A stretch of DNA of 64,000 nt from Bacilli bacterium (lineage in GTDB: Bacteria; Bacillota_I; Bacilli_A; RF39; UBA660), in the NCBI GenBank assembly GCA_017541885.1, contig JAFXYF010000015.1, forward strand, positions 62,001-126,000, given 5' to 3'. This document shows positions 30,580 through 50,622 of this stretch, in pieces; the first letter of the stretch is position 1; each line of letters opens with the position of its first letter. A program made the position numbers and the translations under genes. The notes beneath the pieces were generated by a model, which saw only the letters and a list, made by a program, of their open reading frames with translations, was not told the origin of the DNA and ran no database searches.

Positions 30580-31416
30580 ATGAGCGGTAGAAAAAAGAAA
30601 TTGAGCGATAGACTCAAAAGGTACAATGTATTGCTAATAATTGCTTTAATTGTACTGATGTTATTACTAGGGGTACTAATGATCTTCCAAATCTTTGGTA
30701 ATAACGATTATTACAAAGTGGTTTCTCGAGAAGATAATATCGAAAAATCAAAACAAAATGATAATGGAGATCATGAAACTATAGGATGGGTAAGAGTTCA
30801 AGGAACTAATATCGACTATCCTGTATATGGAATTCTTTCACAAGAATTTGACTATCCTGTTGTTTCAACATCATTTACTTGGTCTTTGAATAAAGATTCT
30901 GATTATCATAATACAATGGTTATTTATGGTCATAATATTATGAATTTAGGTCCTTATCCAAGAGTACATGATGATGACTTCGACAGAATGGAAGAACTTA
31001 TGGGATTTGTTTATCCTGATGTTGCTGAGAAAAATCAATATATTCAACTTACTATGAATGGTGAGAATTATTTATATAAGATTTTTGCAGCAGGATTCAT
31101 TGATCAATTTACACTTGATTCTCTTCCAAAGGGAGAATATCCTGATGATGTTAGAAACAAGTATATTGAACTTGTAAAAGAAAATTCAATTTATGATTAC
31201 GATGTTGACTTAAAAGATGATGATAAAATCTTAAGTGTAGTTACTTGTACAAGATTCTTAGGAAGTGATTTTAGTAATGACTTTATGATTACTGGTAGAC
31301 TTGTAAGAGTTGGAGAAGAAGTTGATCAGTATAAAGTTCATCGTAATAAGAATTATGATAAAGTTTATGAAATTTTGAAAGGAGCTGAGGGTGATGAATC
31401 CGAAGAAAATGCTTAA
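30580..31416 (+). CDS. Sortase, class B-like
   Basis: A 278-residue transpeptidase with an N-terminal membrane anchor (residues 16-38). The catalytic triad is visible: H118 in IYGHN, C223 in VVTCTRF, and R240 in TGRLVR. The domain starts at IGWVRVQGTNIDYPV, as in SrtB-type enzymes. Sortases link proteins to the wall or polymerise pilins. No LPxTG-like sorting signal with a C-terminal hydrophobic tail is present in any product of the window, so its substrate is elsewhere or unusual. The next gene overlaps its 3' end by 23 bases. Confidence 0.92.
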   Translation: MSGRKKKLSDRLKRYNVLLIIALIVLMLLLGVLMIFQIFGNNDYYKVVSREDNIEKSKQNDNGDHETIGWVRVQGTNIDYPVYGILSQEFDYPVVSTSFTWSLNKDSDYHNTMVIYGHNIMNLGPYPRVHDDDFDRMEELMGFVYPDVAEKNQYIQLTMNGENYLYKIFAAGFIDQFTLDSLPKGEYPDDVRNKYIELVKENSIYDYDVDLKDDDKILSVVTCTRFLGSDFSNDFMITGRLVRVGEEVDQYKVHRNKNYDKVYEILKGAEGDESEENA

Positions 31417-34396
31417 AAGATTAATTGGGGTTGCGTTATTAGTATTTGTTCTTTGCTTTTCTTTTTCAGTTTTAGCAAAACCAGTCAATCCTGACGATGG
31501 TTCTGGAAATACTCCAACAACTGATACTGGTACTGGCAATAATACTACTGGAAATAATACTACTGGAAACAACTCTACAAATAGTCAAACTAAAGATCCT
31601 GTAGTAGTTGTACCTTATTCAAAATGTGGTCAAAAATCATGTACAAAAGGTTCAGAATCAACAGTTGTTGTTAATAAATATGGTTTGCAACTAACATATT
31701 CTAAAGGTCAATTTAAAGTAGAAATGCTAAAAAGTGTAAAAGATGGAGTTTATTTTACTATTGCTAAAATAAATGGTTATGCTGCTCCAGCTGATGTAGC
31801 TAGCAAAAAGATTGAATATCTTCATCCTGTAACTTTTACAGCAAAGGGAACATATGATGATCCTGATTCTGGATTAGAAGGAGTTCTAGTTGAACTTAAA
31901 TCTTCTGATTGTGTGTATAATTCAATGAGTTCTTGTTATTGGGATCATTTAGAAGCTACTATGTTTACTACAGATGGAGTTTTAGAGCCTGTGTTTTCAG
32001 AAGTATCTTATAAAATTGGTTCTCTTGTAGATGCTAATTATCTTGCTTATACTATTGATTGTACAAATAATACTGTTAGAGCTAATGGTACTACTCAAAC
32101 AATTAAGAGAGGATCTGGTTCTTTTGAAGATAAATTCTGTTATGCAAAAGAACATGCTTCTAAAAAATATTCATCTGGTATTAGCAATAGAAATAATGAT
32201 GAATTAATTACATTTAAGTGTGATTATAAATTAGAAAGTATTCCTGCTAATGAATCAACTTTAGTAGGAGATAAATATTTTACAAATAAACAATATTTAT
32301 ATGGTGTGTCTACTTATTCAGAAAGTACAAATCTTGTTTATCATTACACACCAAGTTATGAAAATAAAGATACTACAATTTCTTGTGATGTAACTTGTGA
32401 AGAGGCAGTTGAGGTTGAATATGGACCTCCAGTTGCTTCTGCTGCAGGTATGTGTTTTGAATATAAAGTTCGTGTTACAAGCCGTGTATCATGTAATATG
32501 TCTAAAGCACCTTCTTCTGCAGATTTATGTAAATCACAAATTTGTTCTCCAAGACCACAATGTTACCATAGTGGTGGAGAAGTTTATGAACAAGCTGGTC
32601 CAAATACAGACTTTGATTCTTGTGTAAAGAAATGTGATGGTGGAATTTATTCTAAAAAATGTTCTACATCATGCTATAAGAAAGTTTATGGTGACATTTC
32701 TGCTTATGCAAAAACTAATGGTGTTTATTATGATGAAGTTTTTGGTATTAAATTAAGTCGTAATTATAATAAAGGTGTAAATGCTTGGAAGCAAAGAGAT
32801 TTAGCTGGATGTGTTGGATATTATGATAGAAGTAATGGTTCTACTACATCTGATTGGCATGGTAAAAATGAAACTATTCCTGGTAGATGGTATTGTGCTA
32901 ATGGTTGGGCATATAAACCAGGAAAAGGATATCAATATTATAAATTCTTCTATGGTGATAAAGATGGATTCTTCCGTAAATACTATGATAATTGGAGACC
33001 ATGTGATGCAGATTGTAAATGGGAAGAATGTCCAGGGGATATTTATTTAAATAATTATGTTCCATGTAAAACTGTTATGACAGAAGGTTCTGAAGATTGG
33101 AAAAATTATTGTATAACTAGTGGTCAATATGCAGGCTATGTTAATATTCTTGAATATGACTGTGCTAAGAACCAAGAAAGATATAATAATTTAGTTAAAC
33201 AATGTCAAAGTATGGCTTCTTGTTCAACTACTCAAGCTGAATTTACTATTTCTGCAAGCTATACTAAACTTGGACAAACTAAGGAAACTACAATTAATTT
33301 CCCTTATAATTCAAATGCTGATTACTTAAAACATGGTAATCCAGTTAGTTCATCACAAACAAGTAAAACTTCAACATTACTTCCAGATTATCCTGAAAAA
33401 GATCAAGGTATCTTAGGATGTTATCAAACTGGAGGAGATAAAAACTTATATCGTTCTACTTGGGGATTCCCAGGATCTTGGAGAAACTTAAAGACTAATG
33501 AAGTATCTTATGATCCAGCAGTAGATAAAGAAAATCAAGGATCTGCCGATGGTGGTGGAAATAAATCAATTTGGTTTGCATTCCCTGGTAAGTTCTGTAT
33601 TCCAGGAGACGCTAAGAACATAAATGGTGCTTGGTGGAATGCTTATAAACATAGACAACTTGTTAATACAGGAGTAATTGGAGATTTATCAGTATCTCAA
33701 GATGCTCAACTTGGTGCTGAATGTATTGGTGAAGGTTCAGTTATGAATCCACCTGCAAATTATGCACCTGAGAAATATAATATTAAAGCTCATGCTAAAG
33801 ACTTTGGATACTTTGGATGGGATATTGATATTGAATGCTTCTATGCAATCAATGATAATCCTATAAATACAAGTAATGATGAATGTATTGAACCTGTTCA
33901 AGGAGAGGCATATAGAGTTCGTTCTACTGATTTAGAGAACTTATTCCCAGCTGCAGATGGATCTGATTTAGCTTCACCTGACACTGCTGGTAGAAAACCT
34001 GGATTTAACTGGTCAGAATATGCAGTTAATACAAAAAATACTGAATATAAATCTAACCCAGTTAAATACATGCAAGCATTACAAGAAGCTGCTAAGAAAG
34101 CAAAAGATGGTAGTGCAGAAATGTATACAAACGATAATCTAGATTATCAATTCTACTTGACTCCAAAAGTTCTTCGTGAAATGCGTAAGGATAAAGCTGG
34201 TTCAGGTGGATCAAATTACACAGCATTTAGTGATAGTGGATTTACACTAGATAACAATGGTGTAGGACGTTACTACAGTAAGAAGATTCGTAATTTAGGT
34301 AGTGATAATAAACTTCCATTAAATAACGATTCACTATATTGTAACAATATGGTTAACTGGCAAATGCCTGGTTGTGACACCATTCATAATGATTAG
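31394..34396 (+). CDS. 1000-residue secreted cysteine-rich protein
   Basis: A Sec signal peptide (residues 1-28, SVLA cleavage region) is followed by a T/G/N-rich linker with three TGNNT units (residues near 46-60). A long domain rich in C, Y, W and G follows. I count 35 cysteines after the signal, many in CxxxC pairs (CNMS..CKSQIC, CVKKC, CSTSC), implying extensive disulfide bonding. There is no C-terminal membrane anchor and no sorting motif. ATG 31394 is placed nine bases after AAAGGAG. Size, secretion and position make it a candidate tip, adhesin or cargo of the machinery. No family recognised. Confidence 0.78.
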   Translation: MNPKKMLKRLIGVALLVFVLCFSFSVLAKPVNPDDGSGNTPTTDTGTGNNTTGNNTTGNNSTNSQTKDPVVVVPYSKCGQKSCTKGSESTVVVNKYGLQLTYSKGQFKVEMLKSVKDGVYFTIAKINGYAAPADVASKKIEYLHPVTFTAKGTYDDPDSGLEGVLVELKSSDCVYNSMSSCYWDHLEATMFTTDGVLEPVFSEVSYKIGSLVDANYLAYTIDCTNNTVRANGTTQTIKRGSGSFEDKFCYAKEHASKKYSSGISNRNNDELITFKCDYKLESIPANESTLVGDKYFTNKQYLYGVSTYSESTNLVYHYTPSYENKDTTISCDVTCEEAVEVEYGPPVASAAGMCFEYKVRVTSRVSCNMSKAPSSADLCKSQICSPRPQCYHSGGEVYEQAGPNTDFDSCVKKCDGGIYSKKCSTSCYKKVYGDISAYAKTNGVYYDEVFGIKLSRNYNKGVNAWKQRDLAGCVGYYDRSNGSTTSDWHGKNETIPGRWYCANGWAYKPGKGYQYYKFFYGDKDGFFRKYYDNWRPCDADCKWEECPGDIYLNNYVPCKTVMTEGSEDWKNYCITSGQYAGYVNILEYDCAKNQERYNNLVKQCQSMASCSTTQAEFTISASYTKLGQTKETTINFPYNSNADYLKHGNPVSSSQTSKTSTLLPDYPEKDQGILGCYQTGGDKNLYRSTWGFPGSWRNLKTNEVSYDPAVDKENQGSADGGGNKSIWFAFPGKFCIPGDAKNINGAWWNAYKHRQLVNTGVIGDLSVSQDAQLGAECIGEGSVMNPPANYAPEKYNIKAHAKDFGYFGWDIDIECFYAINDNPINTSNDECIEPVQGEAYRVRSTDLENLFPAADGSDLASPDTAGRKPGFNWSEYAVNTKNTEYKSNPVKYMQALQEAAKKAKDGSAEMYTNDNLDYQFYLTPKVLREMRKDKAGSGGSNYTAFSDSGFTLDNNGVGRYYSKKIRNLGSDNKLPLNNDSLYCNNMVNWQMPGCDTIHND

Positions 34397-34411: not shown

Positions 34412-34912
34412 ATGAATAAAGGAATTTTAACAGTTGGAATTATCTTACTTGCTTTAATCGCATTAAACTTATTAAATGTTTTAAATAATTATTCAACAGG
34501 TAGTGAATTAGATTATTACTTATTAAAAGAAACTACTGATGCTGCTATGATTGATGCTTTAGATCCTTTCTATAAATCAACTTGTGGATTATATCGTATC
34601 GATAAAGAGAAGTTCGTAGAGAGCTTCCTTTATCGATTCGCAACTAACGTAGATGCATCTAGAGCTTATACAATTGGATTCTATGATATTAATGAAGTTC
34701 CACCAAAAGTAAGTGTAAAAATTGATTCAGGAACTTCAATCGGATTCAATACAGGAACTGGTGGTAGTGGTGATAAATTAGCTGCTAATATTTCTACTAG
34801 TTACGATGCAGTATTGGAAACAAACTATAAATCTGATGTTCAAACTGAGATGGGATTATTATTAAACTCAAGTGAATGTCAAAATCTTCGTGAACTTTAC
34901 GGGGAGGCTTAA
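34412..34912 (+). CDS. Small one-TM TadE/pseudopilin-like protein
   Basis: A 166-residue protein with a hydrophobic N-terminus (residues 5-25: ILTVGIILLALIALNLLNVL) directly followed by a charged helix and a small soluble domain with two Cys (near 60 and 156). This is the layout of TadE-like pseudopilins and minor pilins, as also seen at 39553 and 40037. Function as an accessory pilus subunit is inferred from layout and neighbours. AGGAGG lies 11 bases upstream, with a purine-rich stretch closer to the ATG. Confidence 0.62.
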   Translation: MNKGILTVGIILLALIALNLLNVLNNYSTGSELDYYLLKETTDAAMIDALDPFYKSTCGLYRIDKEKFVESFLYRFATNVDASRAYTIGFYDINEVPPKVSVKIDSGTSIGFNTGTGGSGDKLAANISTSYDAVLETNYKSDVQTEMGLLLNSSECQNLRELYGEA

Positions 34913-34931: not shown

Positions 34932-35744
34932 ATGGGAAATTTAACTACAGGACTAAGAAAATTTTTACAAAATAAAAATACAGTCACAGTTATTGGTGTT
35001 GTACTTGCAATATTTATATTATATTTTGCATATACAATGCGTATTAAAAGTTCTATTAATCCAATTAATGTTCCATATGCTGCTGAACAAATTGATCCAG
35101 GAGTACAAATTACTGAGAGTATGATTGCTACTAGACAAGTACCTCCTTCAATGTTAGAGGGAGATGTAATCACTAATATGGGTGAATTAGTAGATAAGTA
35201 CTCTGCAGTAGATACTGTTATTCCAAAAGGAAGTTTGTTCTATAAGAGAGCTGTTGTAGAAAAAGAACAGTTACCTACAAATATTATTCTTCAATATCCA
35301 AAAGGATATGTACTATATAACTTATCAGTTGATACAGCTAGTACTTATGGTAACTCTGTATATCCTGGTAACTATATTGATATATATCTAAAGGCAGTTA
35401 ATAAAATTAATGAAAATGATCCTAAGGCGTTAACTAAAGATGCTGATAAGATTATGTTAGGAAAATTATTTGCTAACATTGAAGTATTAGCTGTTAAAGA
35501 TAGTTCTGGTAAACCTGTTTTCCAAAATATTGATGAGAACAGAACTCCAGCAATGGTAGTATTTGCTTTACCAGAAGAATATTATATCTTGCTTAAGAAA
35601 GCAGAATTTATGAGAACTTATGATACAACATTAATTCTTGTTCCTACAAACGAAAGTTTAAAGGATGAACCTGGAGATCTTGAAAAATCAAGTGACCAAT
35701 TAACACAATGGATTAATGAACATACATATTGGACAGAAAGTTAA
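34932..35744 (+). CDS. SAF-domain protein, CpaB/RcpC-like
   Basis: A 270-residue protein. One membrane span (residues 17-37) precedes a SAF domain: VPYAAEQIDPGVQITESMI (residues near 48-66) with the PKGSLFYKRAV strand near 110. The order of TM, SAF domain and beta-rich C-domain is that of CpaB/RcpC, a Tad pilus envelope component, and of FlgA-like proteins. It lies directly upstream of the CpaF-like ATPase, as in Tad loci. AAGGAGG precedes the ATG. Confidence 0.85.
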   Translation: MGNLTTGLRKFLQNKNTVTVIGVVLAIFILYFAYTMRIKSSINPINVPYAAEQIDPGVQITESMIATRQVPPSMLEGDVITNMGELVDKYSAVDTVIPKGSLFYKRAVVEKEQLPTNIILQYPKGYVLYNLSVDTASTYGNSVYPGNYIDIYLKAVNKINENDPKALTKDADKIMLGKLFANIEVLAVKDSSGKPVFQNIDENRTPAMVVFALPEEYYILLKKAEFMRTYDTTLILVPTNESLKDEPGDLEKSSDQLTQWINEHTYWTES

Positions 35745-35790: not shown

Positions 35791-37584
35791 ATGAATGAAA
35801 ATATATTTGACAAGTTAGACTTTGGACCATTTCGTTCATTATTAGATGATGATGATATCACCGATATTTCTTATGATAACAATGGACAGATTTGGATTCG
35901 TTCTTTAACTCAAGGATCTATGAGAGTTGAAATTGAAGGGGCCACTCCTGAATTCGTTGAGAAGTTGGCCTTTCAATGTTCTAACGTTATGGGTACTACA
36001 TTTAACAATGCTAAGCCATTCTTAGATGCTGAGTCTGCAGAGTTACGTATGAACTTTGTACATCAGTCTATAGCTACAAATGGTATTGCATTAGTTATTC
36101 GTAAAACTCCAGCTAAGATTCGTCTTGATAAAGACAAATTATTAAAAGAAGATTATTTTACTGAAGCAATACATGATTTCTTAATTAAATGTGTTGAAGG
36201 TCACTGTAACATAATGGTTGCTGGAGAAACTGGTTCTGGTAAAACTGAGTTTGTTAAATATTTAGCATCTCATACAATTACTAATGAAAAGATTATTACT
36301 ATTGAGGATACTTTGGAGTTACACTTAGACAAGATTTATCCTCAAAGAGATATTGTTGCGATGAAGACAAACAATGTTGCTAGTTACTCAGATGTATTAG
36401 TTACTTGTATGCGTCAGAATCCAAAGTGGATTCTACTTTCCGAGGTTCGTTCTGCAGAAGCTGTTTCTGCTGTACGTAACTCTATTTCATCAGGACACAA
36501 CATCTTATCAACAATCCATGCTGATAAGGCATCTGCTATACCATATCGTCTTTATTCATTAATGGAGACTGACTTGGATGTACATCAATTCTTATCAACG
36601 ATTTATCGTTATATTCAATTAGGTGTACATATCAAAGCATTCTATAGTAAAGAATATGGTAAGTTCCATCGTGAGCTAGATGAAGTTTGTGAATTTTATG
36701 TTGATGAAAATAATGAACCAAAGTCTAGAATAATTTATCAAAAACAAATGGGTAAAATGATGATGTGTAAACCATCAGCTCATTTGACAGAATATATTGA
36801 AAATCAAAATATCGATATTAGTAGTATCATTAGAGATCTTCCAGACGAACTTCCAATTACGGAGTATACTGGAGAAGATGAGAAAGTGGCTGCTAGTGAA
36901 GAGAACAATGTCACAAAAGAAGACGAAAATAAAGAGGAGACTCCTGCAGAGGAAGCTTCCACAAAACCTGTTGAAGAAAACAATGTAGTTTCTACAGAAA
37001 CTACTGAAAATAATAATATTTCAACAGAACCTGTGGAAGAAAATAATGTAGTTCCTATTGAGACTACTGAAAATAATAATATTTCAACAGAACCTGTGGA
37101 AGAAAATAATATTCCTTCTGTTCCGGTAGTTCCACCAGTATTGGGTGATGGACCTGTTCTTGTTGGTACTGAAGACAATAAAGAGAATGTTCCTGGAGCA
37201 AAACCAGATGAAGAAACAAATGTTGTTGTAGGTGCTGAGCTTGGTAAAGCAGAGTCTGTTCCAGTAGTTGATGCTTCTGGTGATGTTCAATTAGGTAATT
37301 CAGCTGTTTCTACAATGGTTCCTGAAATTGGTAGTGCTGATCCAAATGTATTAGCTGCTAACCAACCTGACGTTGTACCTATGGCTCCACCTGTTGATAA
37401 TCCAGTTCCTTTACCTGCACAACCTACACAACCTGTTATTCCTAATGGTGTACCTGTTAATCCACAACAGCCTACTCAGGTTATTGTTCCACAGCCACCA
37501 ACTCAGGTTGCTGTTCCTACTCAAGTTATTCCACAAACCGCAACTAATCCTGTGATGCCTAATGTTGTACGTTTGGAAGGGTAG
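35791..37584 (+). CDS. CpaF/TadA (VirB11-type) ATPase with long disordered tail
   Basis: A 597-residue secretion ATPase that powers pilus assembly as a hexamer. Walker A is GETGSGKT (residues 145-152), an Asp box-like segment is TIEDTLEL, and the LLSEVRSAEAV and SSGHNILSTIHA segments give the Walker B and His-box regions. Core homology ends near residue 355. The remaining 240 residues are low-complexity: two and a half 21-residue repeats rich in E, N and T, then a Pro/Gln/Val-rich tail. Such a tail is absent from typical CpaF. It is followed 12 bases later by the TadB gene. Confidence 0.92.
   Translation: MNENIFDKLDFGPFRSLLDDDDITDISYDNNGQIWIRSLTQGSMRVEIEGATPEFVEKLAFQCSNVMGTTFNNAKPFLDAESAELRMNFVHQSIATNGIALVIRKTPAKIRLDKDKLLKEDYFTEAIHDFLIKCVEGHCNIMVAGETGSGKTEFVKYLASHTITNEKIITIEDTLELHLDKIYPQRDIVAMKTNNVASYSDVLVTCMRQNPKWILLSEVRSAEAVSAVRNSISSGHNILSTIHADKASAIPYRLYSLMETDLDVHQFLSTIYRYIQLGVHIKAFYSKEYGKFHRELDEVCEFYVDENNEPKSRIIYQKQMGKMMMCKPSAHLTEYIENQNIDISSIIRDLPDELPITEYTGEDEKVAASEENNVTKEDENKEETPAEEASTKPVEENNVVSTETTENNNISTEPVEENNVVPIETTENNNISTEPVEENNIPSVPVVPPVLGDGPVLVGTEDNKENVPGAKPDEETNVVVGAELGKAESVPVVDASGDVQLGNSAVSTMVPEIGSADPNVLAANQPDVVPMAPPVDNPVPLPAQPTQPVIPNGVPVNPQQPTQVIVPQPPTQVAVPTQVIPQTATNPVMPNVVRLEG
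36967..37125 (+). repeat. 63-bp tandem repeat in the ATPase tail
   Basis: Units begin at 36967, 37030 and 37093 (each starting CCTGT), with a 63-base period, about 2.5 copies, encoding 21-residue units with PVEENNVV and ENNNISTE. Copy number may vary between strains. Confidence 0.85.
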
Positions 37585-37596
37585 GAGTGTGATGAT

Positions 37597-38499
37597 ATGT
37601 ATTTAGAAGAGTTCTTTATCATTGTAATCTTTGTAGTTGCGATTTATTTATATCGTAATTATAAGGGTGAGAATGTTGGTAAATATGTATTAGGACAAGT
37701 ACAAGGTATGTATGAAAAATTTGCTCCATATTCTTTCCAAGTAGTTCGTGAAAAGACTAAGCAGCTTGGTCAAGAATATACTGTTAAGCAGTATGCTATG
37801 CAAGTGGCAATCTTTGCTGGGTTTGCTGGAGTAGTTTCATATTTATATTTCTATAATTTGATTATTAGTGTTATATATGCTGCTATTGCAGTTTCATTTG
37901 TACCATACTTAGCATTTCTAAGATGTAAAAAAGTATATTCAGAATTTATCTTTGAGCAAATTCAAGTTTATACTTCAAATACTATTATGGAATTTGGTAC
38001 TACACAATCTTTTGTTAAAGCGTTAGAGGGTGTATGTAACTCAGGAGTATTAGAAGATCCAGTCTTAGCTGATGTAAGACAAATGATTAATATGAGTTAC
38101 GATAATGGTACAATTGATGAAGCACTTGACTATATGTCAAAACTTTATCCATATTACATAGTTAAAAATATGCATCAATTATTTTTACAAATTACTAAAG
38201 AGGGTGCACAAAACTCTGCAGACTCTTTAGAGAACATGCAATTAGATATCGATATGCTTGTTGAAAGTGTATATCGAGATAGAATTGAAAGAGCAACATT
38301 CCATAAATCATTCTTACAATTCGGTATTATGCTTTACCTATTAGTAATGTTAGTTCAATACTTATTAGGAAGAGATACATACTTGCAATTACTAGAAAGA
38401 TGGTATGTTCAGTTTTTGATGCATGGTGTATTAATTGTAAACACTTTCTTCTTAGTTAAAGGAGAAAAATACTATTATGAGAATGTAGGTGCTGAATAA
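37597..38499 (+). CDS. TadB-like pilus platform membrane protein
   Basis: A 300-residue inner-membrane protein of the GspF/TadB class. Hydrophobic segments are near 5-20, 70-88, 90-108, 243-262 and 270-288. Between them is the cytoplasmic four-helix GspF domain with TIMEFGTTQSFVKALEG and GAQNSADSLENMQ. TadB and TadC form the platform that couples the CpaF ATPase to subunit extrusion. The stop overlaps the TadC start by one base (TAATG), a sign of coupled synthesis of the pair. Confidence 0.87.
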   Translation: MYLEEFFIIVIFVVAIYLYRNYKGENVGKYVLGQVQGMYEKFAPYSFQVVREKTKQLGQEYTVKQYAMQVAIFAGFAGVVSYLYFYNLIISVIYAAIAVSFVPYLAFLRCKKVYSEFIFEQIQVYTSNTIMEFGTTQSFVKALEGVCNSGVLEDPVLADVRQMINMSYDNGTIDEALDYMSKLYPYYIVKNMHQLFLQITKEGAQNSADSLENMQLDIDMLVESVYRDRIERATFHKSFLQFGIMLYLLVMLVQYLLGRDTYLQLLERWYVQFLMHGVLIVNTFFLVKGEKYYYENVGAE

Positions 38500-39302
38500 T
38501 GGAGATACTAATTGTTGGTGCTATTATCATGTTTGTATTAATTTACAATAATACTATTGATAAGGATAAGTTTTTTGCAGATAACCAAAAATATTTGGAA
38601 ATGTTAAAAGAAGATGATTACCAATTTTTGGTTTATGCTAGATATGGAGAAGATGTAGATGTAGATCAATTATATTCAAAGAGAATTACAATGGGATTCA
38701 TTGCTTTCTTATTTGTATTAGTATTATCTATATCTGGAAATAATTCAGTTGAAATAATTAATGCTCAATTCTTTTTAAATCTTGTTGTTGCTGTTGTTGT
38801 TGCTTATGCAATATTTAAATTACCTTATACTCAATTAAAAGGTTATTATAAACAACACTTACAAGAGATTGATATTATGCTTCCATATTATTTAAAGAGT
38901 TTAGAGATTTTAATTCAACATTATACTGTTCCGGTTGCAATAGGTAAGTCTATTGGAGATGCTCCTGAAATATTTAAACCGGGACTTAGAAAAATGATAG
39001 ATAGAATCAATTCTGGTGATTCTTCTGTTGATCCTTATATGGAATTTGCTAATACATATCCTGTAAGAGATTCAATGAGAATGATGAGACTTTTATATCG
39101 TCTTGGAATTGGTTCACAAGAGAGAAAACAAGAAAGACTTATGATGTTTTCTAAAACAGTTTCTTCTTTACAAAATAAAGCTCGTGAAACTAAATATAAA
39201 GAGCGTTTAAACCATATGGAAAGTCAAACAATGGTAATGCTTGTTTGTACAGGAATTGGTGTTATGCTAGTTATCTTAATCTCTATGATGATGATGTTCT
39301 AG
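38499..39302 (+). CDS. TadC-like pilus platform membrane protein
   Basis: A 267-residue GspF-type protein, the partner of TadB. Membrane segments are near 2-18, 57-75, 85-105 and 245-266. The cytoplasmic segment (MLPYYLKSLEILIQHYTVPVA region near 128) is the TadC-type helical domain. It ends the first operon part: a new promoter for the small pilin lies 25 bases beyond. Confidence 0.86.
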   Translation: MEILIVGAIIMFVLIYNNTIDKDKFFADNQKYLEMLKEDDYQFLVYARYGEDVDVDQLYSKRITMGFIAFLFVLVLSISGNNSVEIINAQFFLNLVVAVVVAYAIFKLPYTQLKGYYKQHLQEIDIMLPYYLKSLEILIQHYTVPVAIGKSIGDAPEIFKPGLRKMIDRINSGDSSVDPYMEFANTYPVRDSMRMMRLLYRLGIGSQERKQERLMMFSKTVSSLQNKARETKYKERLNHMESQTMVMLVCTGIGVMLVILISMMMMF

Positions 39303-39326: not shown

Positions 39327-39355
39327 TTGTTATTTCAAATATAGTTTGTTATAAT
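39327..39355 (+). promoter_or_regulatory. Promoter of the Flp-like pilin gene
   Basis: TTGTTA (39327-39332), 17-base spacer, TATAAT (39350-39355). It gives the small pilin its own transcription start inside the locus, as expected for an abundant subunit. Confidence 0.72.
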
Positions 39356-39390
39356 GAATTTATGATAGGAAAGGAAAGGTGATTCATTAA

Positions 39391-39537
39391 ATGAAAGCTG
39401 CTACTGGTGAATTAAACTTAACTGTTATTACTCTTTTAGCAATTGCTGCTGTTATTGCTTTCTTCTGGGTAATGTGGCCAACTATTCAAAACACAATTAA
39501 TGCACAATGGACAAATCTATCTACATATAGAGGATAA
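39391..39537 (+). CDS. Flp-like small pilin candidate, 48 residues
   Basis: A short frame starting ATG 39391, eight bases after AAAGGTGA and ending TAA at 39537. The product is a six-residue leader-like start, then G6-E7, a 22-residue hydrophobic helix (about 9-31) and a short polar tail ending NLSTYRG. Size, single helix and location directly after TadB/TadC match Flp/Tad major pilins, although the usual G-x4-E spacing is not kept. Own promoter and ribosome site support translation. It is easily missed by gene callers because of its length. Confidence 0.75.
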   Translation: MKAATGELNLTVITLLAIAAVIAFFWVMWPTIQNTINAQWTNLSTYRG

Positions 39538-39552
39538 TAATAGGAGGTTTGC

Positions 39553-40026
39553 ATGAAAGAGGCTTTTGGAGGAATATTTAATTTTTTCTTTTTAATTATA
39601 TTCCTTGTTATTGTAATTGGAGTCTTAGGACTTACTTTTTCCTACACGAAAGCTTTTAAAATGAAGAATGCTATAATCTCTGTCATTGAAGAATACGAGG
39701 GCTCTGGCTGCTATCCTGAAATAAGTGGATCAGCATCTAGTGATACAGCTTGTCGTAGAGCTATTAAACAAAAAGCACAGGATTTAAAGTATAATCCTGT
39801 TTCTTTGAATTGTGATGCAACGTGTAGTGAAAACAGCGGTATGTGTAAGGGTGGAGACATATACTGTTATGAAATTCATACCACTCATAAAAATGGTAAA
39901 AAATATGCTGTGTTTAGAGTTGTAACACAGGTAGATATTAGTTTTCCTATTATTGAAAGAATTATGGGAATTAGATTCTTTCAAGTAGCGGGAGATTCTA
40001 AAGAAATTCAGTTACAGACAAAGTAG
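39553..40026 (+). CDS. TadE-like minor pilin, first of a pair
   Basis: A 157-residue protein. A long hydrophobic N-terminal helix (residues 8-30) is followed by YTKAFKMKN and a small Cys-containing domain (six Cys between about 53 and 103). It ends with VVTQVDISFPIIERIMGIRFFQVAGDSKEI, a hydrophobic and beta pattern (residues near 123-152) typical of TadE/TadG proteins. The next gene has the same YTKAF-MKN-II and DI-IPI blocks, so they are paralogues. GGAGG precedes the ATG. Confidence 0.72.
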   Translation: MKEAFGGIFNFFFLIIFLVIVIGVLGLTFSYTKAFKMKNAIISVIEEYEGSGCYPEISGSASSDTACRRAIKQKAQDLKYNPVSLNCDATCSENSGMCKGGDIYCYEIHTTHKNGKKYAVFRVVTQVDISFPIIERIMGIRFFQVAGDSKEIQLQTK

Positions 40027-40036
40027 GTGAGAATTC

Positions 40037-40516
40037 ATGAATGAAGGTATGGGAAGTACAACAATGATTGTTATAATTATTGTCTTTATTTCTGTTGTTT
40101 CTGCATATATGGCTTACAATGTAAACTATACTAAAGCTTTTCGTATGAAGAATAAGATTATTGCTTTATATGAAGAATATGATGGTGATTGTGGAGCTGA
40201 TTGTAAGGAAGAAATTGCTGAATATGCGAAAGACATTGGTTATACGAGCATAAATAATCTTCGTTGTGAGGAAAGCTACTTTAAACCAGATGATCCATCT
40301 GTTAGAACACAAACTTTTGATAGATATGGATACTGTGAATACAAAGTAAATGTTGTAAAGAGTTCAAATCCATCTGTACATAGGGATAATAATAGTGATC
40401 CTGGATATTATTATCGTATTCTTACTCGTATTGATATTAATATTCCTATAGTTCAAAATGTATTGGATTTAAGAATTTTAAATATTACAGGAGATACAAA
40501 AGTATTTAATAATTAA
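40037..40516 (+). CDS. TadE-like minor pilin, second of a pair
   Basis: A 159-residue paralogue of the preceding protein: N-terminal hydrophobic helix (residues 8-28), YTKAFRMKNKII, an EEYDGDCGADC segment, and a C-terminal ILTRIDINIPIVQNVLDLRIL strand-helix region followed by ITGDTK. Cysteines probably form disulfides outside the cell. It starts ten bases after its paralogue. The pair resembles TadE/TadF in Tad pilus loci. Confidence 0.72.
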   Translation: MNEGMGSTTMIVIIIVFISVVSAYMAYNVNYTKAFRMKNKIIALYEEYDGDCGADCKEEIAEYAKDIGYTSINNLRCEESYFKPDDPSVRTQTFDRYGYCEYKVNVVKSSNPSVHRDNNSDPGYYYRILTRIDINIPIVQNVLDLRILNITGDTKVFNN

Positions 40517-40543: not shown

Positions 40544-41599
40544 ATGGATATTGTAGTTGCAAATCAGTATAGAGATGAAATAATGAATCTTGATGCTGAC
40601 ATTATTAAAAGTGTTAATGGTGAATATGATGCAGCTGAGATAGGAGAAATGTTTAAAGATTTCTTCTTTGACCGTTTAATAATTGATGTTACTGCATTAA
40701 AGTCATATGATGACTATAATATATATAAGAGATTAATTGCTTATATAGATCCAGATAAAATAGTATTTTTACTTCCGGAAGGAAGTAAGCTTTGTACCCC
40801 TAGTTTTTTAAATCAATTAATTCAGATGAAAATTTATAACTTTACAACTAATGTTAGTGGAGTTTCTTATTTACTTAAGAAACCAAATACTTATAAAGAA
40901 GTAGAACATATTGCTAAGATGGCTGAGAAGGCACCTCCTACAGAACCTCCTGCACCTAAGGAGATAGTGGAGCTTGTAGAAGAGAAAAGTGCTCCTCAAG
41001 CTAGTGTTCCTGTAAAGAGTGAACCTAAGAAGAGCAGTACTATTATTCTTGGTGTTAGAAATGTTACAGCTTCTGCTGGAGCAACAACACTAATTTATAT
41101 GATGCTTAAGGAGTTATCACTTGTTTATGGACAAGAAAAAGTTTTAGCAATAGAAATAGATAAAAATGATTTCCCTTATTTTTATGATAAGAGAATGATT
41201 TCTATTAAACAAGATAATTTAAGAGCAACATTAGATAAATATTCAAATATGAAAGTAATATTAATGGATTTAAACGGATGTAGAGAGAGTTCTTTTTGTA
41301 AAGATATTATTTATTTAATTGAACCATCTACATTAAAATTAAATCGATTAATTCAGAGAAATAGAATTGTATTTCAAAGCCTTGTGGGCAAAAAAGTTGT
41401 ATTAAATCAAAGTATTTTACAAAATAATGATGTTTTTGATTTTGAGTCTGAAGCAGGTATTAAGATATTCTATAATATGCCTCCATTAGATGAGAGAAAG
41501 AGAAATTCAGTTATTGCAGATTTGTTGTCACAATTGGGATTAATTAATTCTTCTGTTAGTGATGGATCTGGAAAAATATTTGGTTTATTTAGACGTTAA
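40544..41599 (+). CDS. TadZ/CpaE-like protein with degenerate P-loop
   Basis: A 351-residue cytoplasmic protein. An N-terminal receiver-like domain (1-125) and a proline/lysine linker (127-165) lead to a MinD/ParA-like domain starting ILGVRNVTASAGATTL. The deviant Walker A should read KGGxGKTT; here ASAGATT (residues about 176-182) lacks the GK lysines, so ATP binding is doubtful. VILMDLNG (near 245) fits the Walker B position. TadZ/CpaE proteins place Tad pili at the pole, and some have lost ATPase activity. Last gene of the Tad-like part before the strong promoter at 41603. Confidence 0.75.
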   Translation: MDIVVANQYRDEIMNLDADIIKSVNGEYDAAEIGEMFKDFFFDRLIIDVTALKSYDDYNIYKRLIAYIDPDKIVFLLPEGSKLCTPSFLNQLIQMKIYNFTTNVSGVSYLLKKPNTYKEVEHIAKMAEKAPPTEPPAPKEIVELVEEKSAPQASVPVKSEPKKSSTIILGVRNVTASAGATTLIYMMLKELSLVYGQEKVLAIEIDKNDFPYFYDKRMISIKQDNLRATLDKYSNMKVILMDLNGCRESSFCKDIIYLIEPSTLKLNRLIQRNRIVFQSLVGKKVVLNQSILQNNDVFDFESEAGIKIFYNMPPLDERKRNSVIADLLSQLGLINSSVSDGSGKIFGLFRR

Positions 41600-41632: not shown

Positions 41633-41654
41633 TAATTAAGAAGGAGTGGTCGTA

Positions 41655-41984
41655 ATGGCAAATCTAGTTCAATTCGGTGCAATCGATGCATGCGGAGGAT
41701 TATTACCAATCGTAAGAGTTATTAAGAAAGGAATTTTCCCAATTTTCCAATTAGGTATTCCAATTCTATTAATTCTTTTAGGTACTATTGATTTAGGAAA
41801 AGCTGTTATTTCTAGTGATGAAAAAGAAGTTAAGGCTGCACAAAGTAGATTAATTAAGAGATTTATTTATGCTGCGTTAGTATTCTTTGTAGTAACTTTT
41901 GTTTCTGTATTAATGAATATGGTTGCTCAAGGTGGACAAGGAGATACAGCTAGCTGGGAAAACTGCTGGAGAGCAGCTGGTTAA
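41655..41984 (+). CDS. VirB2/TrbC-like pilin-type protein
   Basis: A 109-residue protein with two hydrophobic helices (about 25-45 and 70-92) separated by a short charged loop, the VirB2/TrbC-type layout. The loop and second helix (DLGKAVISSDEKE, IKRFIYAALVFFVV) are matched in the next gene. It lacks a clear signal peptide. It has its own strong promoter and terminator, consistent with high expression of a structural subunit. ATG 41655 follows AAGGAGTGG. Confidence 0.72.
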   Translation: MANLVQFGAIDACGGLLPIVRVIKKGIFPIFQLGIPILLILLGTIDLGKAVISSDEKEVKAAQSRLIKRFIYAALVFFVVTFVSVLMNMVAQGGQGDTASWENCWRAAG

Positions 41985-41998
41985 AATTACGAGAAAAG

Positions 41999-42024
41999 AT
42001 AGCAATTTATTGCTATTTTTTTTT
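41999..42024 (+). terminator. Intrinsic terminator between the two VirB2-like genes
   Basis: ATAGCAA (41999-42005), loop TTTA, TTGCTAT (42010-42016), T tract to 42025. It isolates the first pilin gene transcriptionally. Confidence 0.87.
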
Positions 42025-42052
42025 TCATTTGATATACTTATTATGATATAAT
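42023..42052 (+). promoter_or_regulatory. Promoter for the VirB2-to-VirD4 part
   Basis: TTTCAT (42023-42028), 18-base spacer, TATAAT (42047-42052). The -10 overlaps an in-frame upstream ATG, which is therefore not the start. Confidence 0.6.
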
Positions 42053-42071
42053 GTTTAACGGAGTGGTTAAT

Positions 42072-42527
42072 ATGAAAAAAGCGATAATCGTTGGTATATT
42101 TATGTTTATTTCACTATTTGCTTTTGTTCCAGTTCAAGCGCATGCTGTGTCTTTCTCAGATGGCGTATTGATTGCTGCAAAAACTAATATTTCGGACTTA
42201 ACTGATGGATATAATCAAACACAAGATTGCGATGGATCTGATTCATTATTAGGTAATCCTGATGATGAAAATTCTGTTGCATGGTTATTAAATAAAATTT
42301 TAACTTATGCCACAATAATTGGTATGGTTTTAGTAGTAGTTTTAAGTAGTATTGATTTCTTAAAAGTTATTACTAAGGGTGATGATGAGGCAATGCAAAA
42401 AGCTGCTAAGAAACTTGCTTTACGTTTAGTATTTGCAGCATTATTATTCTTTGTACCAACTCTTGCTGCTGCGTTATTAGATTTATTTGGTTTAACATCT
42501 GAATCCACTTGTGGAATTGGTCAATAG
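42072..42527 (+). CDS. VirB2/TrbC-like pilin with signal peptide
   Basis: A 151-residue protein with a clear Sec signal (residues 1-26, VQAHA cleavage region), an acidic linker, and two membrane helices (about 80-100 and 118-140). The segment SSIDFLKVITKGDDEAMQKAAKKL (residues near 96-119) parallels the preceding protein. The layout fits VirB2-type T4SS pilins. CGGAGTGG precedes the ATG at 42072. Confidence 0.75.
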   Translation: MKKAIIVGIFMFISLFAFVPVQAHAVSFSDGVLIAAKTNISDLTDGYNQTQDCDGSDSLLGNPDDENSVAWLLNKILTYATIIGMVLVVVLSSIDFLKVITKGDDEAMQKAAKKLALRLVFAALLFFVPTLAAALLDLFGLTSESTCGIGQ

Positions 42528-42541
42528 GAGAGGTGATATAG

Positions 42542-44734
42542 ATGGGAGATTCATACTTAGAGTCATCAAACTTAGGACGTGATTTAATCCGTTCTATTTT
42601 CGCGTTTCTAGATAGACCTGCTTATTGGCTATTAGGAATTGCTTATCAACTATTCTTTAATGTCGCTTCAGCTGATATTTTTAGTAATAATACTATTATG
42701 AAATTTTATGGAAGAGTCCAAGTAATCCTTGGAGTTTTTATGATGTTCCAATTAGCAATGGTATTTTTAAGAGGTATTATTGATCCTGATAGTTTTTCTA
42801 AAGAAAAAGGCGGAGGCTCTTTACTTAGAAGAGTTGCTATGTCATTAATACTTATTACTTTATTAATGCCAATTAGTATTACTAGTCCTAGAAATGAATA
42901 TGAAAAACAAATTAATAATAATGGATTATTATTTGGTACTTTATATTCTTTACAACATAGAATTTTATCAAATAATACAATTGGTAGATTGGTTCTAGGT
43001 ACTACAGATACAAGTGCTAATTATGTTGATGGAGATGAAGATAAACTGGAAACTTCTTCAAGAGTTTTCTCATCAACAATTTTAAAGGCTTTTTATAGAA
43101 TTAATCTGTTGCCAAAAGATAAGAGAACTGATACTGGTACAAAAGATCCAGCAACATTAAATAAAAATAGAGTATGTCAAGATATGGATTCAGAGTTTTT
43201 GAATTCTTATACTAAGTTAGATGCTGATCCTGGTGACATTATTGCAATGGTTAATAAGACTTGTACATTAGATGATGGTCTATTTGGTAGTAAATTCTTA
43301 GGTAGTAAGAAATATTATTTTACTTATATGCCTTTAATTTCAACAATTGTTGCAATTATATTTGTATTTATATTATTAAGTTTTACAATTGATATTGCTG
43401 TTCGTGCTATTAAACTTGCAGTATTACGTTTAATTGCACCAATACCTTTAATATCTTATATGGATCCTAAAGGTAGTGGAGATGAAGCGTTTAAGTCTTG
43501 GAGTAAGACTTTAACTTCAACTTATCTTGATTTATTTATAAGACTTGCTGTTGTATATTTTGTAATATTTATTATTCAAGATATGATTGTTAATGGTATT
43601 GTTATTGAACATGGCTCTGGAGTTATCGGAGTATTATCATTAATTATTATTTGGATTGGTTTATTTGTATTTGCTAAACAAGCTCCTAAGTTTATTAAGC
43701 AAGTCCTAGGATTAAAAGATTCTGGATTTAACTTATTTGGTGGTCTTGCTTCACTTGCAGGAGCTGGAGCTGTTGCTGCTGGAACAATTGGATCATTCAA
43801 TGCTTCTAGAACAGCAAGCAGATTTGCTGATTCAGTAAATAATAAAGATCCTAATACTTTATTTAATAGAGGTAAACATTTACTTGCTGGATTTGCTGGT
43901 GCTGCTGGTGGTGCTGTTACTGGTATGACTGCTTGGGCTGGTGCAAAAGATCACCAAGGAAAAGCAGTATTGGATGCTATTAACAAGCGTAATGCGACTG
44001 AGATTTCAAGAGGAGCATCCGGTTCTACATTACGTGGTAGAATGGATGCTACTGGACATAGATTATTCCAAGGTGAAGGTGCAACATCATTTGATGCTGA
44101 AACTAGAAATATTGCTCAAAAGAAGAGTATCGAAAAAGCTGCAAAAGATTTATTCTCTTACTTAGAGGGTAAAGGTAAAACAGATGGTGCTGCTGAAAAC
44201 GTTAAAACTGCTAATATCGATGCTTTAACTGGACAAGATGGAGTAAAAGTTGGTGTTAAGAGTTCATTAAATGATTTCAATAGAGCAAAAGCTGATGCTT
44301 TGGCACGTCAACAGCGTGAAGGTGGTGCAGCAACATTTACTATTAATGTTGAAGATGCAAAAGGTAATAAATATACTCGTACTATTGATGCTCATGATGC
44401 AGTTGCTACTAAAATTGAAGAAGAATTATCTTATGCTGCAGGTGACTGGTGGGCTGCTGGTATAGGAGCTAATGATAATGGATTCCTTCAAAAGAAAGCT
44501 ACTTATAATGAATCTTTAAAAGATGCAACATTGACACAAGCAGAAAAAGATGGACCATTATATCACGAATATACTTCTCAACCATACAAGAAGGATAAAG
44601 ATGGAAATGATGTTACATTTACTGCTTCTGTATTAAAGAAAACATCAAAAGCTGCTGGAGGAGAAGCTACTCGTCGTGAAAGCAGTGAAAGCTATAAGAA
44701 ACAACAAGCAGATTACAATGCTACTAAAAAATAG
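42542..44734 (+). CDS. VirB6/TrbL-like polytopic T4SS channel protein
   Basis: A 730-residue protein with about seven spans in residues 20-400 (near 35-50, 65-85, 100-118, 262-300, 318-340, 345-368, 400-420). A hydrophilic Ala/Gly/Lys-rich tail of about 300 residues is presumably cytoplasmic. The central segment with AVLRLIAPIPLISYMDPKGSG is typical of TrbL/VirB6-type proteins of Gram-positive conjugation systems, where they form the membrane channel core. Position between VirB2-like and PrgI/VirB3-like genes agrees. RBS GAGGTGAT. Confidence 0.83.
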   Translation: MGDSYLESSNLGRDLIRSIFAFLDRPAYWLLGIAYQLFFNVASADIFSNNTIMKFYGRVQVILGVFMMFQLAMVFLRGIIDPDSFSKEKGGGSLLRRVAMSLILITLLMPISITSPRNEYEKQINNNGLLFGTLYSLQHRILSNNTIGRLVLGTTDTSANYVDGDEDKLETSSRVFSSTILKAFYRINLLPKDKRTDTGTKDPATLNKNRVCQDMDSEFLNSYTKLDADPGDIIAMVNKTCTLDDGLFGSKFLGSKKYYFTYMPLISTIVAIIFVFILLSFTIDIAVRAIKLAVLRLIAPIPLISYMDPKGSGDEAFKSWSKTLTSTYLDLFIRLAVVYFVIFIIQDMIVNGIVIEHGSGVIGVLSLIIIWIGLFVFAKQAPKFIKQVLGLKDSGFNLFGGLASLAGAGAVAAGTIGSFNASRTASRFADSVNNKDPNTLFNRGKHLLAGFAGAAGGAVTGMTAWAGAKDHQGKAVLDAINKRNATEISRGASGSTLRGRMDATGHRLFQGEGATSFDAETRNIAQKKSIEKAAKDLFSYLEGKGKTDGAAENVKTANIDALTGQDGVKVGVKSSLNDFNRAKADALARQQREGGAATFTINVEDAKGNKYTRTIDAHDAVATKIEEELSYAAGDWWAAGIGANDNGFLQKKATYNESLKDATLTQAEKDGPLYHEYTSQPYKKDKDGNDVTFTASVLKKTSKAAGGEATRRESSESYKKQQADYNATKK

Positions 44735-44754
44735 AATAAAGGTGTGTGATATTT

Positions 44755-45081
44755 GTGTATAATGAGTATTTGATTCCTGCAAATACGAAGAGAGGGCAAT
44801 TAATCTTAGGATTTTTTAGACCGTTTGATTTGTATTTGTTTGGTGGAGGTGTACTGGTTACATTTATTCTAATTGCGTTCCTGCCGTTATCAAGTACGGC
44901 TATTACGATATTTTGCTTAGCTCCGGCATTTATAACAGGATTTCTTGTTATGCCGGTGCCATATTACCATAATATGTTAGTTGTAATAAAGGAAGCATAT
45001 GAATTCTTTACTGGTCGTCAAAGATATAGATGGAAAGGTTGGTGTTATAAAAATGTCGTCATCAAAAAACGTCAAAAGTAG
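44755..45081 (+). CDS. PrgI/VirB3-like membrane protein
   Basis: A 108-residue protein with two membrane helices (about 25-45 and 47-66) after a YNEYLIPANTKRGQ start, and a basic C-terminus. PrgI/VirB3 proteins anchor the VirB4 ATPase and nearly always precede it, as here. The GTG at 44755 is chosen because AAAGGTG (44738-44744) is at a workable distance; GTG 44746 is too close. It overlaps the following gene by 29 bases. Confidence 0.8.
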   Translation: MYNEYLIPANTKRGQLILGFFRPFDLYLFGGGVLVTFILIAFLPLSSTAITIFCLAPAFITGFLVMPVPYYHNMLVVIKEAYEFFTGRQRYRWKGWCYKNVVIKKRQK

Positions 45082-45610
45082 TGGTTTTACAGAAGATTGG
45101 TTACCTGTAAGAGCCATACAAAATAATATGATTGTCACTCGTGACAATTCAAAGGTTACTGGAGTTAAGATTACTCCTAGAAATATATTTATATTAGACC
45201 CTGATCTACAAAATAATATATTGATTGCGCTTAGAAATTTTTATAACACAATCGATTATGAATTTTGGTTAGTTGTTGCAGATAGACCTGTAGATATTTC
45301 TGTTTACATGTCTCAAATGCAATTACTACTTAATGAAACAAGTTCTCCTGCAATTCGTAAATTAATATTACAAGATATTGATAAAGGAGAAACATTTATT
45401 AGAAATAATGTTGTAGATACTGAATATTATTTCTTATTTAAAACAAAAGATGCTGATTTAGCACAAAAGAGAATTCGTCAAATGATTAATGGACTTGCTG
45501 CTGCTGGACTTAATGCTTCAATGGTAAGTAATTCCGATTTAAGATTAATCTTAGATAATTTCTTAAATGGGGGAAATACTACAGAGTTTGGAACGGTGAT
45601 GCCAGTATGA
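45053..45610 (+). CDS. VirB4 N-terminal domain protein (split VirB4)
   Basis: A 185-residue soluble protein corresponding to the N-terminal non-ATPase domain of VirB4: SGFTEDWLPVRAIQNNMI, a DLQNNILIALRNFYNT helix and the EFWLVVADRPVD strand (residues near 10-80). It ends where the ATPase part begins in the next frame, with a four-base ATGA overlap. In most systems both parts are one chain. ATG 45053 fits GGTG upstream; the in-frame ATG at 44999 would overlap the previous gene by 83 bases. Confidence 0.78.
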   Translation: MSSSKNVKSSGFTEDWLPVRAIQNNMIVTRDNSKVTGVKITPRNIFILDPDLQNNILIALRNFYNTIDYEFWLVVADRPVDISVYMSQMQLLLNETSSPAIRKLILQDIDKGETFIRNNVVDTEYYFLFKTKDADLAQKRIRQMINGLAAAGLNASMVSNSDLRLILDNFLNGGNTTEFGTVMPV

Positions 45611-47397
45611 GTACAGGATTAAGAAGTCAATTAGCTCCTAAGGGCTTACAATTTAATGCTAGTGATTTCTTCATTAGCGACAAATATGCAACTATTTTAA
45701 CAGTTGTATCTTATCCAAAATATATTGCTCCTGGTTATTTATCATCACTTACAAATATGTCTGGAATTAAGGTAGTAGTTAAACATATTCCAGTACCATT
45801 TGGTGATATGCAAAAGATGTTAAATAAGCAAGTTGCCGAATTAAAACAAAGATATCAAGATGAAAGAGATCAAACTACAAAAGAGAGAATTAGACAAGAT
45901 GCTGAAAGTTTGGAATATTTCATTTCAATGCTTGCTGGTAGTCAAGCAAGAATCTTCGATTTTCAAATGCACATTATGATTACTGCTGAGACTAAAGAAG
46001 ATTTAGAGTTAAAGAAATTAAATGTTAAGAATTATTTAGATGCAATGGAGTTGAAAGCTGTATCTTTAAGATTTGAACAAGAAAAAGTTTTAAAATCTAT
46101 ACTTCCAGTTTTCCCTTCACAAGATATTGAACAAAGAATTGGTACTCCAATTCCTTCTGTAACAATTGCAGCTATGTATCCATTTATTTTCGATAGTATT
46201 AAAGATCCTGGACTAAGTTGTTTACTTGGAGTAGACTTCTCAGGAGGAGTAATCTTATTTAATCAATTCTTATACAAGATTCGTAAAGAAAATAATAGAA
46301 ATAATGCTAATATGATTATTCTTGGTACATCTGGTTCTGGTAAATCTACAGCAGCTAAATTATTACTTAGAACTCATATACGTAATGGTTGTCAAATTGT
46401 TATTATTGACCCTGAAGATGAATTCAGAGAATTAACTAATGCGTATGGTGGAGATACTGTTGATATTGGTAAAGGTGGAGAGTTTGGTTTAATTAACCCA
46501 CTTGAAATCGTTATTGATGCAGATGAAGAAGAAATTAAACAAGGTCTTGGTTATACAGTACTTACTCGTACTTTACAATTCTTAAAGGCATTTATGAAGT
46601 ATTATGATCCTTCTATTGAAGAGGATGTACTTACAATGTTCTCTGAAATTGTACAAGATACTTATAGAAGATTTGGAATTGACTTTAATACAGATTTTTC
46701 TCAGTATACTTCTCAAGATTATCCAACATTTAGTGATGTGTATGCAACAATTAAAGGTAGACTTATGTCTATGACTGATCATACACAAGAGAGAGATATA
46801 ATGGAGAGACTTGAATTAAAGGTTCGTCCAATTACTAAAGAATTAAAGTTCTACTTTGATGGACATACTACAATCCGTAAGGGTAGTGACTTTATGGTAT
46901 TTAATATTAAAGAGTTAATGAATAGTGATTCTACTGTTAAAAATGCATTATTCTTCAACGTATTAAAGTATGCTTGGGGATTATGCTTAGACTTTAGTGT
47001 AGATACAGTACTTATGGTAGATGAAGCTCATGTATTATTAGGTGATAATAATGCTTTAGGAGCTGATTTCTTAGCACAAGTACAAAGACGTGCTCGTAAA
47101 TATAATACTGGTACAGTTATCATTACTCAACAACCATCTGATTTCTCAGATCCTTCTGTAATTACTCAAGGAAAAGCTATCTTTGATAACTCTTCTTATT
47201 ACTTAGTAATGGGTCTTAGAAAACAAGCTGTTGAAGATTTAAGTTTATTAATTGACTTAAATGAAAGTGAAAAAGAAAGTATTAAACGTTATTCTCAAGG
47301 AGAGGCTTTACTAGTATGTGGAGATAGACGTATGAGAATAAATGTTGCTGTTACACAAGATGAATTAGATTCCTTTGGATCTGGAGGAGGATTCTAA
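45607..47397 (+). CDS. VirB4-family T4SS ATPase (C-terminal part of split VirB4)
   Basis: A 596-residue AAA+ ATPase of the VirB4/TraC/TrsE class that energises subunit handling in type IV secretion. Walker A is GTSGSGKST (residues 240-248). Walker B is LMVDEAHVLL with D472. The ARRARKYNTG and ITQQPSDF segments are typical VirB4 motifs. The first 230 residues still contain part of the N-terminal domain. Translation starts in an overlap with the preceding gene, so the two halves are made together. Confidence 0.93.
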   Translation: MSTGLRSQLAPKGLQFNASDFFISDKYATILTVVSYPKYIAPGYLSSLTNMSGIKVVVKHIPVPFGDMQKMLNKQVAELKQRYQDERDQTTKERIRQDAESLEYFISMLAGSQARIFDFQMHIMITAETKEDLELKKLNVKNYLDAMELKAVSLRFEQEKVLKSILPVFPSQDIEQRIGTPIPSVTIAAMYPFIFDSIKDPGLSCLLGVDFSGGVILFNQFLYKIRKENNRNNANMIILGTSGSGKSTAAKLLLRTHIRNGCQIVIIDPEDEFRELTNAYGGDTVDIGKGGEFGLINPLEIVIDADEEEIKQGLGYTVLTRTLQFLKAFMKYYDPSIEEDVLTMFSEIVQDTYRRFGIDFNTDFSQYTSQDYPTFSDVYATIKGRLMSMTDHTQERDIMERLELKVRPITKELKFYFDGHTTIRKGSDFMVFNIKELMNSDSTVKNALFFNVLKYAWGLCLDFSVDTVLMVDEAHVLLGDNNALGADFLAQVQRRARKYNTGTVIITQQPSDFSDPSVITQGKAIFDNSSYYLVMGLRKQAVEDLSLLIDLNESEKESIKRYSQGEALLVCGDRRMRINVAVTQDELDSFGSGGGF

Positions 47398-47425
47398 AAT
47401 ATAAGGAAGTAAGGTGGTGGTGGCA

Positions 47426-49777: not shown

Positions 49778-49785
49778 GTGATACA

Positions 49786-50565
49786 GTGGCAAGTAAAAAA
49801 GCTTATATTATATTGATTGCTATCCTTCTTATATTTGGACTTGTTATGTTTGTACTTTTTGGTGTTCCAAATATTAAGAAAGAAGCTATGGAATCAGTCT
49901 TAATAGTTGGAGATAATACTACATGGGTATATAAAGATCAAAAGTGGAATAATATAGCTTATTTAGAAGCAATTGAAAAATATAACTGGAGAGAATTTAA
50001 AGTTTTTGAAGATAATAAAGAATTAGGTAATTATTATTTATGGCATGATGATAAATGGTATGCATTTAAAGAGAATAGAGAAGCTTTAAATATTGTTGGT
50101 AACTTTATTGCTTATGATGCAAATTATGAAATGAAATTACTTGATTATGAAATGTCTGAAGTAGATGATATGACATATGTATATCAAGTTTTAGAAGAGA
50201 ATAATTTAGCAAGAGATAGTGAATTTTCTTCTATATATAAAGTAAGTGTTGATTTTGATGGAGATAATATTATAGAAGATTTCTATTTAATTACTAATGT
50301 TTTTCCTATAGACTTTGAGCCTGAGGAGAACTTTGGTATTGCATTTATGGTAAAAAATGGAGAGATTTATACTCTATATAATGAAGTAGGTGTTGCAGTT
50401 GGATTAAACAATTGTAAGCCTTACTATAATACTTTTATAGATACTAATAATGATAATATTTATGAAGTAATATTAAGTTGTGGAAAATATAGTACTGAGG
50501 GGTCAATTGATAGGTTATATCAATTTGATGAAAACCAATTTAAATTAATGGTTTCTAATCAGTAA
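49786..50565 (+). CDS. One-TM extracytoplasmic protein, possible VirB8-position component
   Basis: A 259-residue protein with an N-terminal membrane span (residues 6-27) and an outer domain. Two acidic loops, DFDGDNIIEDF (near 165) and DTNNDNIYEV (near 224), look like calcium-binding DxDxDN loops. It begins with GTG after TAGGTGAT. Gram-positive T4SS loci usually carry a one-TM VirB8-like protein near VirB1 and VirD4, and this protein occupies that slot, but the sequence gives no family match, so this is positional inference only. Confidence 0.6.
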   Translation: MASKKAYIILIAILLIFGLVMFVLFGVPNIKKEAMESVLIVGDNTTWVYKDQKWNNIAYLEAIEKYNWREFKVFEDNKELGNYYLWHDDKWYAFKENREALNIVGNFIAYDANYEMKLLDYEMSEVDDMTYVYQVLEENNLARDSEFSSIYKVSVDFDGDNIIEDFYLITNVFPIDFEPEENFGIAFMVKNGEIYTLYNEVGVAVGLNNCKPYYNTFIDTNNDNIYEVILSCGKYSTEGSIDRLYQFDENQFKLMVSNQ

Positions 50566-50622
50566 AAATAATGACTTTTTTGAAAAAATTAGTTATAATA
50601 TGGGAAGAAGGGAAGATTTGGT

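Follow-up and report, generated by a model that had tools for sequence, protein, structure and literature searches.

The window examined here, a stretch of 64,000 nucleotides from a bacterium of the order RF39, carries on its forward strand a run of genes of the Tad type. It opens with a gene for a DUF5411 protein (34412..34912), followed by a CpaB/RcpC-like protein with an SAF domain (34932..35744), an ATPase of the VirB11/TadA family (35791..37584), putative TadB-like (37597..38499) and TadC-like (38499..39302) platform proteins, a 48-residue protein here called S48 (39391..39537), two further candidate pilins, E1 (39553..40026) and E2 (40037..40516), and a putative TadZ-like protein (40544..41599), which has no family match, was named from its position and ends the Tad part. 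Counting the window, 57 of 81 loci have this order in full, continued by two VirB2-like genes and a VirB6 gene; contig ends cut many of the others. Just 5' of the Tad genes (30580-34396) are a sortase-like gene and then a gene for a 1001-residue cysteine-rich putative surface protein without a family match.

The ATPase is certainly TadA. It matches PF00437 (E = 3.6e-27), TIGR02788 (3e-33) and TIGR03819 (4e-29), as a Tad/CpaF-type ATPase should. Its long C-terminal tail (about 36900-37580) is rich in Pro, Glu and Asn and made of near-exact repeats, which is unusual for this ATPase. The CpaB/RcpC component of a Tad system is also present: the SAF domain (PF08666) scores above its cut-off, and RcpC (PF16976) just below (26.5 bits against 28.8). 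The platform proteins were assigned from position and hydrophobic profile. T2SSF gave no match in 13 TadB homologues or in the TadB and TadC of the window, and across the genome of origin, with E values up to 10 allowed, it found PilC and chance matches only. A profile-profile comparison of TadB with TadC, for which the alignments are shallow, was not significant.

The DUF5411 protein (PF17424, E = 1.2e-40) co-occurs with S48. Among the genomes of this lineage covered by the surveys for both, 38 of the 40 that have DUF5411 also have S48, as against 0 of the 6 that lack DUF5411 (Fisher p about 3e-6). The two exceptions are uninformative, because one (G055) ends after TadB and in the other (G039) the stretch is masked. 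A DUF5411 protein, a CpaF ATPase and a platform protein also occur together in the DUF5411/CpaF/PilC putative secretion operon of Roseburia, Ruminococcus and Eubacterium, likewise gut Gram-positives; that operon differs in having been described in Clostridia (PMC9523054).

S48 has the sequence MKAATGELNLTVITLLAIAAVIAFFWVMWPTIQNTINAQWTNLSTYRG. A promoter lies directly upstream of its frame, with a -35 box TTGTTA (39327-39332), a 17-base spacer and an extended -10 box of the form TGtTATAAT (TG at 39347-39348, TATAAT at 39350-39355; 39327..39355 overall). It is followed by the Shine-Dalgarno-like sequence AAGGAAAGGTG (39371..39381), nine bases 5' of the ATG at 39391, and a GAAAGGA-type motif is found at this place in most relatives. 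In 66 of 78 loci TGnTATAAT occurs in the 110 bases that precede S48; among the remaining Tad genes (DUF5411, CpaB, TadA, TadB, TadC, E1, E2 and Z) it precedes one of 567 starts. The loci are related and the counts therefore not independent, but the contrast is made within the same loci, and it is clear. Codon usage may also hint at high expression. For Phe, Ile, Val and Asn, the codons of S48 are moved towards those of EF-Tu, and the C-ending fraction of Phe codons is 0.54, compared with about 0.2 in the neighbouring genes. This lends weak support, because the Phe positions are fixed ones, and the bias is partial, with Ala and Thr codons not following EF-Tu.

Within the genus, 33 of 39 genomes have the frame, and the family profile matches 195 of the 241 order genomes that were sampled. 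Across a phylum-wide sample the profile matches 10 of the lineage's 11 genomes, and gives one weak match (E = 0.004), within an open frame of 322 residues, in the other 284. When contigs were scanned with TadC, S48 followed tadC in 77 of 80 loci, and the three loci without it extend just 0.05-0.33 kb beyond tadC. The first 14 residues, MK[A/E]A[T/S]GEL[N/Q/S][L/M]TV[I/V]T, hardly vary among 76 sequences, in which K2, A4, G6, E7, L8, T11, V12, T14, F25 and W40 are unvarying; a smaller sample of 23 sequences has 11 invariant residues. Pairwise dN is 0.07-0.33 and dS 0.38-1.7, with dN below dS in every listed pair. S48 is thus a real gene, far beyond chance, and is strongly conserved across the whole order. 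A preliminary description of this DNA had proposed a genuine short gene with its own promoter and ribosome-binding site, placed after a TadB/TadC pair. All of this is borne out, with the reservation that TadB and TadC are named by position; and the results that would have spoken against it, a frame lacking conservation or a dN above dS, are the reverse of what is seen.

The same description had predicted one long hydrophobic helix, and the AlphaFold model agrees, giving a single helix over residues 3-44 (pLDDT 85.9). S48 would therefore be a short protein with one long hydrophobic helix and no globular head, as Flp pilins are. In its relatives the helix is kept and the tail varies, so that lengths range from 48 to more than 80 residues. 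In all eight long members examined the tail has four or six Cys residues and the helix has none, as would suit an exported tail with disulfides. Many genera carry tandem copies, and in one paralogue (L117b) Ser replaces G6. A search of the S48 sequence profile against the PDB returned chance matches only. Foldseek with the S48 model found no match, which for a lone helix is uninformative.

The N-terminus of S48, MKAATG, is a hydrophilic leader that ends in Gly or Ala ahead of the hydrophobic stretch. The cleavage site is ambiguous, because A4 and G6 are both invariant, and the leader could end at Ala4 or at Gly6. The short leader M[KR]xAxG is common to S48, E1 and E2, with G6 in 77 of 78 E1 and in 69 of 69 E2 sequences, and A4 is near-invariant in S48 and E1. 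S48 does not have the Glu at +5 and Tyr at +6 of Tad pilins. If it is cut after G6 these positions are held by Thr11 and Val12, both invariant in the 76 sequences, and a cut after A4 does not supply them either; E+5 is missing from E1 and E2 too. The preliminary description regarded G6-E7 as an altered prepilin motif. The residues are as it described them, but Glu beside the leader Gly is invariant throughout the order, and G6-E7 is for that reason a trait of the family and not a defect of this copy.

No dedicated TadV peptidase is present in the Tad part of the locus. The single A24 peptidase match of the genome lies on a different contig, adjoining a T2SSF platform gene, and A24 peptidases are found in 225 of the 241 genomes of the order. 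We considered whether a missing peptidase argues against processing, and rejected the argument: 11 of the 16 order genomes without A24 have S48, which is near the base rate, and their lack of A24 can be explained by assembly gaps. It has been suggested that MSH loci share a peptidase (PMC6668835), and likewise that the Kil pilus of Myxococcus does (PMC12075869); we infer that the A24 enzyme of this genome cleaves the S48 precursor. The enzyme itself belongs to a separate type IVa or competence-like pilus set, in which it stands beside PilC with a canonical GFTLIE pilin gene near, and with a PilB-like ATPase on another contig (L101 4750-5517 and 9770-10273; L102 7603-9672).

The two proteins encoded after S48 resemble minor pilins. 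E1 is a TadE-like minor pilin or pseudopilin candidate, by its leader and its model, with no Pfam match. The model has a helix at residues 2-47 and a β-sheet (pLDDT 87.4). Foldseek found nothing significant, and a second structural comparison ranked pseudopilins top: the best matches are Xcp pseudopilins, with Z of 5.6 (rmsd 3.6, 102 residues aligned) and 5.0 (3.1, 81), followed by the pilin PilE at 4.0. These values are below the level that would exclude a common arrangement, and are suggestive of a pseudopilin-like fold. E2, a second TadE/F-like candidate, has the leader and no family match. A profile-profile comparison of S48 with E1, again from shallow alignments, was not significant. In one genome (G147, locus L148) two S48 copies, E1, E2 and Z form a unit apart from the ATPase and platform genes. 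Because this unit is detached, we suggest that S48-E1-E2-Z acts as a pilin module whose genes travel together.

Comparison with the Flp/Tad (type IVc) pilins (PF04964) brings out both likeness and difference. The solved Tad pilin of Caulobacter is a 45-residue amphipathic helix without a β domain (PMC11067988). S48 resembles this PilA in its short single helix, its lack of a β domain, a leader ending in Gly, a Tad-type locus beside TadE-like genes, and a predicted mature length of about 42 residues. It differs in having Glu directly after the leader Gly, and no E+5/Y+6, the pair that bonds the subunits of the Caulobacter pilus and is described as crucial for its assembly (PMC11067988); its locus differs in having no TadV in the Tad part. 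Neither PF04964 nor PF16982 matches S48 or 22 relatives at E values up to 1. PF04964 has no match anywhere in the genome of origin, with the Caulobacter control positive, and PF16982 (Flp1_like) has none in the 11 genomes of the lineage in the phylum sample, a search in which no positive control registered. S48 differs in this from Flp1_like and from the Gram-positive pilins termed 'Flp-like' by Imam et al. 2011 (PMC3244431), small putative pilins of tad loci that, like S48, have no Y+6. The archaeal type IV pilin N-terminus PF07790 matches 3 of 23 S48 members, at best with E = 0.039, a level at which homology cannot be claimed; Tad systems are believed to have arisen from archaeal pili (PMC6668835). 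The proposal of a Flp-like pilin in the preliminary description thus stands as regards a short single helix in the pilin position, and falls as regards PF04964/PF16982 membership and the E+5/Y+6 pair. S48 is Flp-like in build, place and expression signals, yet it is outside the known Flp families.

On the basis of these observations, we hypothesise that S48 is the major pilin of a lineage-specific Tad-like system, and put the probability of this at roughly 0.65. The reading draws on the conservation and fixed place of the gene, its specific promoter and EF-Tu-ward codons, the shared leader and predicted single helix, the variable tail and tandem paralogues, the model of E1, and the presence of an A24 peptidase in the order. 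Against it count the lack of E+5/Y+6 and of a Flp match, the absence of a peptidase from the Tad part, the ambiguous cleavage site, the Ser of L117b, the partial codon bias, and platform proteins that T2SSF does not match. The strong S48 promoter would give an excess of pilin over the machine genes, and the protein would insert with its N-terminus in the cytoplasm. A six-residue leader MKxATG would then be cut off, the probable enzyme being the single A24 peptidase whose gene lies elsewhere, beside the type IVa platform gene; this would leave a mature helix of about 42 residues, to which other genera would add a longer, variable, sometimes Cys-rich outer tail. TadA and the two platform proteins would polymerise the mature subunits, presumably in abundance, while E1 and E2, which are TadE-like, would serve as minor pilins that form the tip. 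As S48 is without E+5 and Y+6, its core would need rewired polar contacts, for which the invariant E7, T11 and T14 are the simplest candidates.

An alternative, which we consider unlikely, is that the TadE-like E1 and E2 build the shaft and that S48 acts as a tip adapter or minor pilin. A missing E+5 is typical of tip-capping minor pilins (PMC10191384), TadE-like shafts have been proposed for Flp-less tad loci (PMC3244431), and the E1 model has a pseudopilin-like appearance. However, E1 and E2 also lack E+5, the conserved promoter seen at 66 of 78 S48 genes is found at 0 of 78 E1 and 0 of 69 E2 genes, and S48 is far better conserved than E1 and has tandem duplicates in other genera. Less likely again, S48 would stay uncleaved in the membrane as a small subunit of the machine that assembles the pilus, a scaffold or motor partner outside the filament. 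The non-canonical cleavage context, the paralogue lacking G6 and a Tad part without TadV would all fit such a subunit; variable, Cys-rich tails that are probably exported, tandem copies, and a strong promoter for this gene alone would be unusual for a scaffold, and the leader of S48 is common to its two pilin-like neighbours. It is highly improbable that S48 instead works with the type IV secretion genes, perhaps as a pilus or channel protein, since, for all that VirB2-, TrbL/VirB6-, VirB4- and VirD4-like genes come next on the same strand, that part holds VirB2-like proteins of its own and has its own promoter-like site in 24 of 65 loci, and the Tad genes of G133 (L149), with two S48 copies, have no adjoining T4SS genes.

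It has been recognised since 2011 that some Gram-positive tad loci lack a recognisable pilin (PMC3244431). For a large gut lineage that is uncultured, S48 now offers a concrete candidate. A limited literature search found no work on RF39 or Tenericutes with Tad or VirB4. S48 also provides a natural test case for two questions: whether something else can take the place of the E5/Y6 network, described as crucial for Tad pili, and to what extent two pilus systems can be served by one prepilin peptidase.

The secretion genes lie directly 3' of the Tad genes (41646-52941) and encode two VirB2-like proteins (PF18895, below cut-off), then TrbL/VirB6-like, VirB4-like, SpoIID-domain and VirD4-like proteins. 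The first three are in the same order in most related loci, and the promoter-like site 5' of the first is of the form TTGnnn-TATAAT. It is conceivable, if doubtful, that S48 forms a pilus whose core, with Thr at +5 and Glu next to the leader Gly, is rewired, and that this pilus joins VirB4, VirB6 and VirD4 in a single hybrid apparatus for contact-dependent transfer. Further downstream in the window (57595-60405) is a gene for a 936-residue protein with 12 DUF285 repeats.
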